Source: Gammaproteobacteria bacterium
Lineage (GTDB): Bacteria; Pseudomonadota; Gammaproteobacteria; JAADJB01
Reading direction: 5' to 3'
DNA length: 64,000 nt
Assembly (NCBI GenBank): GCA_013151035.1
Contig: JAADJB010000040.1
Location: 1-64,000 of the forward strand
Of this stretch, positions 56,858-62,442 are shown in pieces (position 1 is the stretch's first letter; every line of letters begins with the position of its first letter). The notes below the pieces were generated by a model. That model searched no databases. It worked only from the letters and a program-made list of their open reading frames with translations, and was not told the DNA's origin. The position numbers were made by a program, and so were the translations under genes.

Positions 56858-58597
56858 ATGAATATTTCACGTCGAGAATTTATCCAGATGCTTGCTGTTG
56901 CAGGCGTATCCACCTTACAACTCGAAGGCTGTAGCACAAACAATGGTAATCGTTTTATGACGAGCGGAAACAATCCCGCCGATCTGTATGAATTACCCGC
57001 ATTTGGCAATGTCTCGATAATGCATTACACCGATTGCCATGCGCAATTAATGCCGATTCACTTTCGTGAACCCAATATTAATCTGGGCATTGGCAGTATG
57101 CGTGGACAACCGCCACATCTAGTGGGAGAAAACCTGCTCAAACACTATGGCATCCGGCCAGGCTCTGCCGAGGCCAATGCCCTGACTTATATTGATTTCA
57201 CTGAGGCATCGAAGAAATTTGGTAAGGTTGGTGGCTTTGCTCATCTATCCAGCCTGGTGAAAAAAATTCGCGCACAACGTCCAAACAGCCTGTTATTGGA
57301 TGGTGGTGATACCTGGCAGGGGTCAGCCACAGCATTATGGACCAACGCACAGGATATGGTTGATGCACAACTGTTACTCGGCGTGGATATAATGACATCG
57401 CACTGGGAGATGACCTTTGGTGCCGAACGTGTGCAGGAAATCATTAATAATGATTTTAAGGGGAAAATCGATTTTGTAGCACAAAATGTCGTTGATAATA
57501 ACTGGGGTGACCCCATATTCAAGCCCTATGTTATTCGTAATATTAACGGCATCCCTACCGCCATTATTGGACAAGCATTCCCCTACACCCCGATTGCCAA
57601 TCCCCGCTATATGATTCCGGACTGGAGTTTTGGTATACAGGATGAAAATATGCAGGCGATGGTTAACAAAGCTCGGGGTGAAGGTGCTCAGGTTGTTGTG
57701 GTGCTATCACATAACGGCATGGATGTTGATTTGAAGATGGCCAGCCGTGTAACGGGTATTGATGCCATCATGGGCGGACATACGCATGATGCCATCCCGT
57801 CACCCACTATTGTTAATAACCTGGGTGGCAAGACACTGGTCACTAATGCCGGTTCAAATGGCAAGTTCCTCGCTGTGCTCGACTTTGATGTAAAAAATGG
57901 TCGTGTACGCGATTTCCGTTATAAACTGCTGCCAGTATTTTCTAACCTGATTGAGGCTGACCCAGAGATGGAGGCGTACATCAACAAGGTTCGCGCACCC
58001 TATCTGGATAATCTGCAACGGGAACTTGCCATCACCGACAGTCTGCTCTACCGTCGTGGAAATTTCAATGGTACCTTTGACCAGCTTATCTGTGATGCAC
58101 TGATCGAGGTTATGGATGCACCGATATCACTCTCACCCGGCTTTCGCTGGGGAGTGAGTGTATTACCCGGTGAACCCATTACCTTCGAACAGGTGATGAG
58201 TCAAACCGCTATCACCTATCCAACCGTATCCGTTGACATGGTTACGGGTGGACGCATCAAGGAAGTTCTGGAAGATGTCGCCGACAACCTGTTTAATATA
58301 GATCCCTACTACCAACAAGGCGGTGATATGGTGCGCGTTGGCGGTCTACGCTACAGCATTAATCCACATAAAAAGATTGGTCAACGCATCAATGATATGG
58401 AACTCAATGGACAAGCACTGATGCCCAACAAGGAATATCCAGTAGCCGGCTGGGCCAGTGTTGGTCGGCCACTAGAGGGTAGACCAGTATGGGATGTTGT
58501 TGAAGAATACCTAACCAGTAAGAAAACCATTCGCATTGATCATCTGAACACACCCAAGATTATTGGTGTTAAGGGTAATCCCGGGTATAAGCCATAA
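56858..58597 (+). CDS. soxB: Thiosulfohydrolase SoxB
   Basis: 579 aa, manganese-dependent 5'-nucleotidase fold enzyme that releases sulfate from SoxY-bound thiosulfonate. Tat-like leader SRREFIQMLAVAGV, then HYTDCHAQLMPIHFREP, GGDTWQGSATALWT, VVVLSHNGMDVDLKMA and GGHTHDAIPSP. It follows the terminator after soxA by 30 bp, so either readthrough or its own promoter serves it. No soxCD is found in the window. Confidence 0.96.
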   Translation: MNISRREFIQMLAVAGVSTLQLEGCSTNNGNRFMTSGNNPADLYELPAFGNVSIMHYTDCHAQLMPIHFREPNINLGIGSMRGQPPHLVGENLLKHYGIRPGSAEANALTYIDFTEASKKFGKVGGFAHLSSLVKKIRAQRPNSLLLDGGDTWQGSATALWTNAQDMVDAQLLLGVDIMTSHWEMTFGAERVQEIINNDFKGKIDFVAQNVVDNNWGDPIFKPYVIRNINGIPTAIIGQAFPYTPIANPRYMIPDWSFGIQDENMQAMVNKARGEGAQVVVVLSHNGMDVDLKMASRVTGIDAIMGGHTHDAIPSPTIVNNLGGKTLVTNAGSNGKFLAVLDFDVKNGRVRDFRYKLLPVFSNLIEADPEMEAYINKVRAPYLDNLQRELAITDSLLYRRGNFNGTFDQLICDALIEVMDAPISLSPGFRWGVSVLPGEPITFEQVMSQTAITYPTVSVDMVTGGRIKEVLEDVADNLFNIDPYYQQGGDMVRVGGLRYSINPHKKIGQRINDMELNGQALMPNKEYPVAGWASVGRPLEGRPVWDVVEEYLTSKKTIRIDHLNTPKIIGVKGNPGYKP

Positions 58598-58604
58598 ATT
58601 CAAT

Positions 58605-58655
58605 GGTGCGTGGTATGCACCCTACCTTTCATCGGTAGGGTGCGCATTGCGCACC
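58605..58655. repeat. Two palindromic repeats, opposite orientation, after soxB
   Basis: Copies at 58605-58626 and 58634-58655 face each other between the convergent soxB and doxX genes and together form a long hairpin. Confidence 0.8.
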
Positions 58656-58663
58656 GCAAATCT

Positions 58664-59263
58664 CTACGCGCCAACCATCTTGCGATGCACCCAATAATCT
58701 ACACTCAAATAACGCCCCGCACCAACAAAAAACAACACCAATAACATAATAAAATAGGTGGCGGCAAACTCAATCCCGTTATTCAACATGGCAAGACTAC
58801 CATGCTCAGTCAGCCACTCATAATTCCCGTATTCCTGCAGGATCTCTCTGGCACTTTGCAACCGCTCCATCGCAGCAACACTCCGATCATTAGCAAATAA
58901 ACTCCCAGTACCCTCCGCAATGGCAAGCCAGCCATGCTGCCAATGCACTGTTAATGCAGCAACCACCATCGTCGCCATTAATGGTACCGATATATAACGC
59001 ACACCCAGACCCAGTAAAAGTAATACCGAACCCACAATCTCGGTTGATGTTGCCAGCCATGCCATCAGTTCTGGAAAAGGTAGTCCCAGCCCCCAATCAG
59101 GATTAGCAAACCACTCAATCGTACCCTCCATATGAGTAATTTTATTCGTACCCGCCATCCAGAATATCGGAGCCAGATAAAGCCGTAACAACAAGGGTGC
59201 AATAAAATCCATACTACGAGTCAGGTTTAACCAACCGTGTATCCTGAGTAACATCATCTTCAT
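58664..59263 (-). CDS. DoxX-family membrane protein, probable HvfX-like partner of the RiPP operon
   Basis: 199 aa with four membrane segments (PLLLRLYLAPIFWMAG, MAWLATSTEIVGSVLLLLGLGVRYISVPLMATMVVAALTVHW and a C-terminal FAATYFIMLLVLFFVGAG). A long loop (GWLAIAEGTGSLFANDRS...) between segments is typical of DoxX proteins found beside DUF692 genes. Those are thought to help copper handling or maturation in HvfABC-type systems. It is divergent from the sigma-factor operon across about 270 bp of repeats, which fits joint control. Function inferred from context. Confidence 0.7.
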   Translation of the reverse strand: MKMMLLRIHGWLNLTRSMDFIAPLLLRLYLAPIFWMAGTNKITHMEGTIEWFANPDWGLGLPFPELMAWLATSTEIVGSVLLLLGLGVRYISVPLMATMVVAALTVHWQHGWLAIAEGTGSLFANDRSVAAMERLQSAREILQEYGNYEWLTEHGSLAMLNNGIEFAATYFIMLLVLFFVGAGRYLSVDYWVHRKMVGA

Positions 59264-59284: not shown

Positions 59285-59450
59285 TAGGGTGCGTACTATT
59301 TATAGTTAGTCCTTTTACATGGAAAAACCTGACAGAAATAATTGCATTCTTTGACTCATTTAGATTTATTTGGTGCGCACTGCGCACCCTACCACTTAAT
59401 AGGTAGGGTGCGTACCACGCACCAATATCCCTGGTAGGGTACCACTCACC
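59285..59450. repeat. Cluster of palindromic repeats in the doxX-sigma divergent region
   Basis: Half copy at 59285-59296, full copies at 59372-59393 and 59402-59423 facing each other, degenerate copy at 59433-59450. The 269-bp gap 59264-59532 must also hold the promoters of both genes; I could not place them with confidence. Confidence 0.75.
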
Positions 59451-59532
59451 AATGCCCTGTTATAGATTGATATATACGAGACATCTAGACTTTGTTAGGC
59501 TAAACACATCATTCAATACTTACCTCGCTATA

Positions 59533-60114
59533 ATGGAACAACATAGCCCAACTGATAACAGAAGTCACCCCGCCAACACCTGGCTGGATGAACACGGCGA
59601 TGTGCTTTATCGCTTTGCCCTATTACGACTGGGTAATCCACATCTGGCCGAAGAGGCAGTACAGGAAACCCTGGTTGCAGCCCTGCAAGGCTGGAGTAAA
59701 TTTAGTGGTCGAGCCTCGGTACGCACCTGGCTAACCGGCATCCTCAAAAACAAGATTATTGATCACTTTCGTCGCTCCCAACGTGAGGTCCCTTTGCCTG
59801 ATGACTGGTACGACAATGATCCCTTTAGCGATCACTTTGTCGATGAGGGGCATTGGAGCTTTACCTTAAAGGACTGGGGAAAGCCTGAATCCATGTTAGA
59901 ACAGGGAGAATTCTGGCGCGTATTACAAGAATGCCTGGATAAAATTCCACCGCGCCTGCGCCATGCTTTTTTAATGCGCGAGGTAATGGAGGAAAAAAGT
60001 GAAAAAGTGTGTCAGGATCTTGATATTAGCCCGACCAACCTATGGACTATGCTTTACCGTGCCCGTATGGGACTTCGGAAGTGCTTTGAAAAAACAGGAG
60101 TTAAACCATCCTAA
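59533..60114 (+). CDS. ECF-type RNA polymerase sigma factor
   Basis: 193 aa from ATG 59533 (MEQHSPTDN); the start is uncertain because no clear Shine-Dalgarno is seen, and an in-frame ATG exists at 59452. Sigma-2 region: WLDEHGDVLYRFALLRLGNPHLAEEAVQETLVAAL, then RTWLTGILKNKIIDHFR. Sigma-4 region: IPPRLRHAFLMREVMEEKSEKVCQDLDISPTNLWTMLYRARMGLRKCF. It is translationally linked to the zinc anti-sigma gene and upstream of the peptide/MNIO genes it probably controls. Confidence 0.85.
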   Translation: MEQHSPTDNRSHPANTWLDEHGDVLYRFALLRLGNPHLAEEAVQETLVAALQGWSKFSGRASVRTWLTGILKNKIIDHFRRSQREVPLPDDWYDNDPFSDHFVDEGHWSFTLKDWGKPESMLEQGEFWRVLQECLDKIPPRLRHAFLMREVMEEKSEKVCQDLDISPTNLWTMLYRARMGLRKCFEKTGVKPS

Positions 60115-60365
60115 GTTGTAAACAAGCGAGCTATTTAATATCCAGACATCAAGATCAACCGTTACGTTGGCGTGATCGTCTGGGTTTACGCATTCATTTA
60201 TGGATGTGTACTAATTGTCGCCGTTTTGAGCAACAGATTGGATTTTTAACTCACGCCATGCACCATTTATCTCGTCAAACACTGGATAACAAGGATACAG
60301 AAGGCGGACTTTCTGAACAAACACGAAAACGTATACAACATAATATAGAATCATATAAACCATAA
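60108..60365 (+). CDS. Zinc-binding anti-sigma factor with probable ATC start
   Basis: An 85-residue frame (ILSCKQASYLISRHQDQPLRWRD...) directly follows the sigma gene. It contains HLWMCTNC, the H-x3-C-x2-C motif of ZAS/zf-HC2 anti-sigma factors, with another Cys at position 4. There is no ATG, GTG or TTG before Met35. An in-frame TAA at 60102-60104 limits the start to ATC 60108 (or CTA 60111). AGGAG at 60097-60101 lies six bases before the ATC, good for initiation, and the frame overlaps the sigma stop by 7 bp. No membrane segment. Probably senses metal or redox through its Cys/His cluster (inference). Confidence 0.7.
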   Translation: MLSCKQASYLISRHQDQPLRWRDRLGLRIHLWMCTNCRRFEQQIGFLTHAMHHLSRQTLDNKDTEGGLSEQTRKRIQHNIESYKP

Positions 60366-60389: not shown

Positions 60390-60842
60390 ATGAAAAAATT
60401 AACAACCCTATCACTCGCACTAACCGCAGTTATCAGCATGACCCCTGCACTTGCCAGTGAAAACCCATTTTCAGCCAATGTCATGGCATCAGGCTACCAG
60501 GTCGCATCCGCTGATGACAAATCAGCCGAAGGCAAATGTGGTGAAGCCAAGTGTGGCGGTAACATGAAGATGAAAATGGACAAGAGCAAGATGAAAGAAG
60601 GTAAGTGCGGCGGCAGCATGAAAATGGATATGGACAAGAGCAAGATGAAAGAAGGTAAGTGTGGCGGCAGCATGAAAATGGATATGGACAAGAGCAAGAT
60701 GAAGGAAGGCAAGTGCGGCGGCAGCATGAAAATGGATATGGACAAAAGCAAGATGAAGGAAGGCAAGTGTGGCGGCAGCATGAAGATGGATATGGACAAG
60801 AAAAAAGATAAAATGAAAGAAGGCAAGTGTGGCGGCATGTAG
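60390..60842 (+). CDS. HvfA/bufferin-like RiPP precursor with tandem EGKCG repeats
   Basis: 150 aa. Sec signal peptide (cleaved near ALA at 22), a short spacer, then a Lys/Met/Gly/Cys-rich region. It has seven cysteines: six in EGKCG and one in EAKCG. Five of them are in near-identical 18-residue units KMKEGKCGGSMKMDMDKS (54-bp tandem repeats). EGKCG is the motif modified by MNIO enzymes in Haemophilus HvfA; modified peptides bind copper (established for HvfABC and bufferins). The Met/Asp blocks could add metal ligands. GGAG precedes the ATG. No homology to other proteins seen. Confidence 0.85.
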   Translation: MKKLTTLSLALTAVISMTPALASENPFSANVMASGYQVASADDKSAEGKCGEAKCGGNMKMKMDKSKMKEGKCGGSMKMDMDKSKMKEGKCGGSMKMDMDKSKMKEGKCGGSMKMDMDKSKMKEGKCGGSMKMDMDKKKDKMKEGKCGGM

Positions 60843-60851
60843 GCAAGAGAG

Positions 60852-61691
60852 ATGAATGCTGTCCTGCAAGGTGCGGGTCTGGGTCTACGACGTGAACTTA
60901 TTAATGACCTGAGCCGCACAATTCCGGATGCTATCCAGTTCTTCGAGCTTGCACCCGAGAACTGGATGGAGGTCGGTGGTCAATGGCGTAAGCAATTACG
61001 CCATTTCTCTACCGAACGTCCTGTCGTGGCACATGGCTTGTCGTTGTCACTCGGTAGCCTGGATCCACTGGACGAGGGGTTTGTACAACGCATCGGGCAC
61101 TTTCTGGATGAATACAATATCCCCCTATACACCGAACACCTGTCATGGTGTAGCGATGAAGGACACCTGTACGACCTGTTACCCATTCCATTTACCTTCG
61201 ATGCAGTCGAGCATGTAGCCAGCCGCATTCGACGCGTACAAGAGATCCTGCAACGCCGTATCGCGATTGAAAATGCCTCTTACTATGTCGCACCACCAAT
61301 GGCTGAGATGAGCGAGGCTGAATTCATCTGTGCTGTACTGAAGGCGGCTGATTGCGATTTACATCTTGATGTGAATAACATCTATGTCAACAGCATCAAT
61401 TTTAACTTTGATCCACACCCGTTTATCCAGCAACTCCCGGCTGAACGAGTCGTCTATATGCACATGGCAGGGCACTATCAAAAGAGCCAAGACCTGATTA
61501 TTGATACCCACGGAGCCGATGTTATTGAATCGGTGTGGGAACTATTGGCCTATACCTATCAACAGATCGGAATACACCCTACACTGTTGGAACGCGATTT
61601 CAACATCCCGCCATTATCCACCCTGTTACCCGAGGTAGAACGTATTGCCCAATTACAAATAGAAGCAGGAAAACATGAACAAGTCGCCTGA
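60852..61691 (+). CDS. DUF692/MNIO-family peptide-modifying enzyme, HvfB/BufB-like
   Basis: 279 aa TIM-barrel enzyme of the multinuclear non-heme iron oxidative family. Iron-ligand segments are visible: VAHGLSLSLGS, YTEHLSW, IAIENASYYVAP, LHLDVNNIYVN and HMAGHYQ, ending with the LLERDFNIPP motif. It would oxidise the EGKCG cysteines of the peptide encoded 9 bp upstream, giving oxazolone/thioamide or thiooxazole groups. AGAGAG precedes the ATG; the stop overlaps the next gene by 17 bp. Confidence 0.9.
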   Translation: MNAVLQGAGLGLRRELINDLSRTIPDAIQFFELAPENWMEVGGQWRKQLRHFSTERPVVAHGLSLSLGSLDPLDEGFVQRIGHFLDEYNIPLYTEHLSWCSDEGHLYDLLPIPFTFDAVEHVASRIRRVQEILQRRIAIENASYYVAPPMAEMSEAEFICAVLKAADCDLHLDVNNIYVNSINFNFDPHPFIQQLPAERVVYMHMAGHYQKSQDLIIDTHGADVIESVWELLAYTYQQIGIHPTLLERDFNIPPLSTLLPEVERIAQLQIEAGKHEQVA

Positions 61692-62442
61692 GCGAAAAAG
61701 CTATCAGGACTACCAACACCAGTTCGCCCAGCATCTACGTAACTCCGCAGTAAATCCCGCTCCTGAAGGTGCAGACCCACAACGTATGCAAGTTTACGAA
61801 GATCTAATCTTTAATAACTTCAACAGCTTTCTACTTAACTGCTTCCCCATTACCCATGACATTCTGGGTAACAAAGCATGGCACAAGCTGACTAAACAGG
61901 GCTTTGCCGAGAGTCATAGCCCCAGCCCCTTGTTTCGTGATATTCCCGCAACATTTCTTGCATGGCTACAAACAAAAACAACCGAACCCTTGCCGCAATA
62001 CCCCTGGCTGTATGAGTTTATGCACTATGAATGGATCGAACTCAGCGTAAAAACGGATACGGCTGATCTGGATACCGTAGTCATACCGGATCAATCAGGT
62101 GATCGACTTGATAATAAATTAGTGCTCAATCCCACCGCACAACTCGCCTGTTATCATTGGCCGGTACACACCATCAGCCCAGATAATTCGACACCAGTGA
62201 TATCGGAACAAGCTCATTGTTTTCTGATCTTTCGTAAGAAAGACGACGAGGTACACTTTATCGAAGTCAACCCTCTTACCGCACAACTCATTCAACAACT
62301 ACAGGAATCATCAGAGCAGCCATTAAGACAGATACTAAAAAAACTAGCCAACACAGTCTATCAAGGTTCTGTTCAAGATCTGGAAACGGCTATCCCGCCA
62401 TTGCTAACAAGTCTACAACAACAAGAGCTTATCCTGAGCTGA
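61675..62442 (+). CDS. DUF2063 partner protein, HvfC/BufC-like
   Basis: 255 aa. N-terminal DUF2063 (QDYQHQFAQHLR, RMQVYEDLIFNNFNSFLLNCFPITHDILG, WLYEFMHYEWIEL) and a C-terminal domain with RKKDDEVHFIEVNPLTAQLIQQL. Its homologues bind the precursor and MNIO protein and are needed for modification. Overlap with the MNIO gene implies stoichiometric expression. Confidence 0.88.
   Translation: MNKSPERKSYQDYQHQFAQHLRNSAVNPAPEGADPQRMQVYEDLIFNNFNSFLLNCFPITHDILGNKAWHKLTKQGFAESHSPSPLFRDIPATFLAWLQTKTTEPLPQYPWLYEFMHYEWIELSVKTDTADLDTVVIPDQSGDRLDNKLVLNPTAQLACYHWPVHTISPDNSTPVISEQAHCFLIFRKKDDEVHFIEVNPLTAQLIQQLQESSEQPLRQILKKLANTVYQGSVQDLETAIPPLLTSLQQQELILS

Follow-up and report, generated by a model that had tools for sequence, protein, structure and literature searches.

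An ATC codon in the start column of a ZAS-type anti-sigma gene overlapping its ECF sigma gene at the stop codon

Introduction

Where does translation begin when a reading frame offers no ATG, GTG or TTG ahead of residues that are invariant in its family? The question is raised by a small anti-sigma gene in a gammaproteobacterial contig (JAADJB010000040.1), within the 64,000-nucleotide stretch of DNA analyzed here (the window). Gene callers exclude starts other than ATG, GTG and TTG by rule, and to our knowledge few bacterial genes with such starts are well characterized. The present locus is an unusually clear start-site case, with two invariant Cys/His residues lying upstream of every canonical start. 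At the head of the frame stands an ATC codon, and the gene is either a rare case of a weak non-standard start or one whose start was recently damaged or misread. Four explanations are weighed below; the weights that we give them are judgements and were not computed.

Results and Discussion

The frame in question lies on the forward strand at 60108-60365 (85 codons plus stop). It is intact in both sequence and translation, being open from 60105 to the TAA at 60363-60365, and reading from 60105 the codon ACC is followed by ATC-CTA-AGT-TGT-AAA and then by the complete anti-sigma protein. An in-frame TAA at 60102-60104 on the same strand closes the frame upstream, so that no longer form is possible, as the first-pass annotation had stated. 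The same annotation had described 85 codons with a clear ZAS motif, and translation and profile matches bear it out: the motif reads H30-LWM-C34-TN-C37, with Cys4 further upstream; the Pfam model zf-HC2 matches with an E-value of 1.8e-6 (28.4 bits, cut-off 22.2), and the NCBIfam model NF052368 (antisigmaE) with an E-value of 6.8e-21 (73.8 bits, cut-off 50). A family profile, which includes the window's own sequence, aligns to the frame with 104.9 bits and crosses neither a stop nor a frameshift. Scores above the cut-offs, the H-x3-C-x2-C motif with its upstream Cys, and a position directly 3' of an ECF sigma gene place the protein among the ZAS/zf-HC2 anti-sigma factors. Judged by sequence, it is the ZAS anti-sigma cognate to the TIGR02943-type sigma encoded just upstream, with predicted zinc binding and sigma inhibition. 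It resembles the NF052368/zf-HC2 partners of TIGR02943 sigmas in sequence, length, order after the sigma gene, conserved Cys/His residues and, in several loci, linkage to hvf genes; those read individually all use ATG, GTG or TTG, whereas the window has ATC.

The absence of an early canonical start is real. The first-pass annotation had found no ATG, GTG or TTG before residue 35; the first methionine is in fact residue 33 counted from the ATC (ATG 60204). A start at this internal ATG, which no canonical start precedes in the frame, would give a 53-residue protein. Callers limited to ATG/GTG/TTG could at best report this 53-codon form; the first-pass annotation had expected automated callers to miss the gene. 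An alignment of 68 sequences has just four invariant columns, C4, H30, C34 and C37, the putative zinc ligands. Initiation at Met33 would cost the protein C4 and H30, so function must reside in the long form. AlphaFold models the same region with confidence (pLDDT block means of 93-97 for residues 1-50) and places helices at 4-16 and 21-33, both of which the short form would lack. Codons 1-34 have a coding score of +5.7 in the anti-sigma frame against -16.8 and -16.3 in the other two, higher than that of 96.6% of stop-free off-frame stretches. Taken together, the invariant C4 and H30, the confident model and the in-frame coding usage argue that the region before Met33 is part of the protein. 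None of the homologues examined starts at the Met33 position; homologues starting at the internal Met would, by the first-pass annotation, have refuted its reading. We therefore reject the Met33 start, which loses C4 and H30, as most improbable.

Comparison with known structures adds the general fold. Foldseek aligned about 51-59 columns of the model to SigW-RsiW (5wuq), RslA (3hug) and AlgU-MucA (6in7), all with E-values above 1, at an rmsd of 1.5-1.6 Å for RsiW chain D and MucA. At these E-values the likeness of the 85-residue protein to RsiW, RslA and MucA extends to a small helical fold only. RsiW and MucA are membrane-anchored proteins. A sequence search of the PDB with the single anti-sigma protein gave no match, and one with the alignment brought up no more than RsiW (E 0.52) and a ribosomal protein (E 0.31).

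If the protein begins upstream of Met33, the ATC at 60108-60110 (forward strand) is the natural candidate, and homologues point to exactly this position. We read 70 sigma/anti-sigma junctions base by base (69 homologues and the window) and found ATG at 63, GTG at five, TTG at one and ATC at one, that of the window. The homologue's start codon falls in the same alignment column as the ATC in most of the 69 and one or two codons off in the others, so that the ATG, GTG or TTG of every other junction is no more than two codons away from the ATC column. The protein profile agrees: positions 2-47 of the antisigmaE model match window residues 2-47, which sets the first position of the model on ATC 60108, and in many loci homologue alignments begin at residue 2 of the window protein. 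The choice of ATC 60108 as the predicted start position, made earlier from the window alone, thus coincides with the start column of the homologues and with a well-placed Shine-Dalgarno sequence. No canonical start would yield a functional protein, and the codon sits in the homologous start column behind such a sequence, the features by which a non-canonical start is recognized. No ATC or other non-NTG start was seen in the 69 individually read homologues, which come from outside the order of this genome. A wider automatic scan covered 133 loci, a few places being duplicated (e.g. L106/L141), and looked from -3 to +1 codons for ATG, GTG or TTG; nine loci had none there, namely the window, L015 (masked by N) and seven less closely related homologues, six of which show a methionine further upstream in translation (the seventh is L042).

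The junction itself has the layout usual for the family. The ECF sigma gene (TIGR02943 family, Sig70_famx1) occupies 59533-60114 on the forward strand and matches TIGR02943 with an E-value of 5e-57 (192.8 bits, cut-off 162.2) as well as Sigma70_r2 and Sigma70_r4_2. Its own start is uncertain: ATG 59533 is preceded by no clear Shine-Dalgarno sequence, and a longer in-frame ATG form (59452-60114) is also open. Inside its coding sequence, at 60096-60100 on the same strand, lies AGGAG, the putative Shine-Dalgarno sequence of the anti-sigma gene; the motif is present as first annotated, with a gap to the ATC of 7 nt where six had been given. The sigma stop (TAA, 60112-60114) and the ATC together read ATCCTAA, which confirms the overlap of anti-sigma start and sigma stop noticed earlier; the arrangement recurs, with ATG, in three homologous loci (L085, L096 and L101). 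The anti-sigma start lies within 10 nt after the sigma stop at 57 of the 68 measurable junctions and overlaps the stop at 23, and at 60 of 70 junctions the Shine-Dalgarno ideal is matched at four or more bases. Given the 23 overlapping junctions and the identical geometry in three loci, overlapping in this way is habitual in the family, and what sets the window apart is the third base of the start codon alone. The last sigma codon, TCC, has this same base in its middle; with ATG it would read TGC.

Several local explanations were considered and set aside. The C of the ATC pairs with the Shine-Dalgarno sequence in a predicted AGGA/UCCU hairpin; the fold is no stronger than that of shuffled sequences (z 0.42), and a hairpin sequestering the ribosome-binding site was rejected as weak. 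A frameshift fusion of sigma and anti-sigma was also rejected: the anti-sigma frame is -1 to that of sigma and open only from 60105, and no slippery heptamer was seen at 60102-60114. An indel in the A6 run at 60089-60094 could not rescue the start, as the in-frame TAA at 60102-60104 comes after it. An exact-pattern search of viral_contigs found no second copy of the junction.

A single base separates the window from the nearly universal state of the family, which invites the question of whether that base was read correctly. The codon could truly be ATG and the gene ordinary, the C being an assembly base error or the base of a minority strain. The genome is a draft in 54 contigs, and the rarity of start-codon switches to AUC makes error an explanation to be taken seriously: among 61,358 ancestral AUG starts, two changes to CUG, one to AUU and none to AUC were reported, in a count that annotation rules bias (PMC5622118). 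On the other hand, the neighboring frames bear no other sign of error, genome completeness is 97.65% with contamination of 0, and a comparable missing start occurs in none of the 46 other ORFs of at least 150 aa in the window. We consider a misread base unlikely, slightly behind the next alternative.

That alternative takes the C as genuine and young. In this strain or population, a recent hypomorphic or null mutation from ATG to ATC would strongly lower the anti-sigma and leave the sigma regulon, probably hvf, partly or fully derepressed, with the frame still intact because too little time has passed. The one-base distance from the family state fits this as well, and the ATC is known from a single genome. 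There are documented cases of a start-codon SNP lowering a regulator, for example ATG to ATA in rpoS, which leaves up to 5-fold less protein (PMC12864459), and an excess of sigma over anti-sigma gives constitutive expression of the regulon in sigR-rsrA (PMC5472188). Such decay must be set against the preservation of the Shine-Dalgarno-like sequence, the overlap geometry, the full-length frame and all four invariant residues. A recent lesion seems improbable to us, if the foremost of the rivals.

We lean towards real initiation at ATC 60108, a modest preference drawn from sequence comparison. The infC gene is autoregulated and a well-characterized rare-start gene. In the same genome (L117:1495-2025, G000:C49) it begins with ATT behind GGAGG and has no ATG, GTG or TTG at its N-terminus; the organism thus has at least one expected non-canonical start. 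Callers limited to ATG/GTG/TTG would place a wrong start on this gene too. The infC gene starts with ATT in E. coli and with ATC in Streptomyces, where sigR starts with GTC (PMC5472188). Since infC begins with ATT in this genome and with ATC in Streptomyces, use of the ATC is plausible, and one ATC upstream start in E. coli is supported by N-terminomics (PMC13245402). Like infC, the window gene has an AUH start behind a good Shine-Dalgarno sequence and would be expected to face discrimination by IF3, which acts against non-canonical start codons such as ATC; unlike a rare start that is well characterized, the ATC shows no visible conservation in the anti-sigma family. Against initiation at the ATC speak the great rarity of AUG to AUC switches (PMC5622118), a weak start on the anti-sigma, which is the opposite of sigR-rsrA, a C read from one genome, and the predicted, though weak, pairing of that C with the Shine-Dalgarno sequence.

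Under initiation at the ATC, an ancestral ATG would have become ATC by a single G-to-C change, which would also have turned the last sigma codon from TGC to TCC. fMet-tRNA would initiate the anti-sigma at ATC 60108, using the AGGAG within the end of the sigma gene, and ribosomes terminating at the overlapping sigma TAA may assist, since reinitiation from that stop would help initiation at an ATC. Such initiation would be weak and sensitive to IF3, and most of the anti-sigma would then come from termination-reinitiation after sigma. The protein may restrain sigma until the zinc site is disrupted by a signal, perhaps of metal or oxidative nature, and sigma may control the adjacent hvfABC/hvfX metallophore genes.

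The Streptomyces SigR-RsrA system provides the closest parallel, being also a sigma/ZAS pair with a start-stop overlap, a non-canonical start in the operon and a dedicated ribosome-binding site inside the sigma gene before the anti-sigma (PMC5472188). There, sigma bears the rare codon (GTC), the anti-sigma is produced in surplus, and an excess of sigma leads to constitutive expression of the regulon (PMC5472188); in the window the anti-sigma bears the rare codon, which would be expected to shift the ratio the other way. Weak translation of the anti-sigma, coupled to and below that of sigma, is possible, although it would not be a safe design by itself. By analogy, a shortage of anti-sigma suggests derepression of the regulon, which in this genome probably comprises the neighboring hvfABC metallophore genes. 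Should the ATC be real, then either efficient coupling provides sufficient anti-sigma or repression of the regulon is partly lifted, and the locus would be a second sigma/anti-sigma operon whose protein ratio is set by a rare codon, in this case one on the anti-sigma gene. It is doubtful, in our judgement, that the anti-sigma is deliberately throttled by an ATC under IF3 discrimination, with inhibition tied to the coupling with sigma translation and to the level of IF3, which would make the pair the mirror image of sigR-rsrA in control of a metallophore operon.

The neighborhood resembles a RiPP metallophore locus. An HvfA-like precursor gene (60390-60842, forward strand) follows the anti-sigma gene; it matches NF050188 with an E-value of 1.6e-13 and 51 bits, below the equivalog cut-off of 95 bits, and the HvfA repeat domain NF050137 with an E-value of 1.2e-5, above the cut-off. 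At 60543-60837 a 54-bp unit that codes EGKCGGSMKMDMDKSKMK is tandemly repeated in 5.4 copies, and this repetition has raised the number of EGKCGG units. Genes for the MNIO-type RiPP maturase HvfB (60852-61691; NF003818, E 4.9e-125, over the cut-off) and the RiPP maturation partner HvfC (61675-62442; NF050145, E 3.4e-72) follow on the forward strand. The gene for HvfX, of the DoxX family (58664-59263, reverse strand; NF050144, E 1.3e-71), is divergent from the sigma gene. Linkage of the sigma/anti-sigma pair to hvf genes recurs elsewhere (e.g. L005, L011 and L019). A soxB gene at 56858-58597 (TIGR04486, E 7.8e-263) adjoins the hvf/sigma locus, and soxB lies near the sigma pair in L010 and L018 as well. 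Finally, a palindromic intergenic repeat, GGTGCGCAyNNyGCACCCTAC, occurs at 59372-59392, 59403-59423, 58605-58659 and elsewhere in the window, with 16 matches at up to three mismatches where chance predicts 0.05; some of the 16 are a single palindrome matched on both strands. The repeat resembles a REP-type family, and several copies form inverted pairs that flank hvfX and the sigma promoter region.
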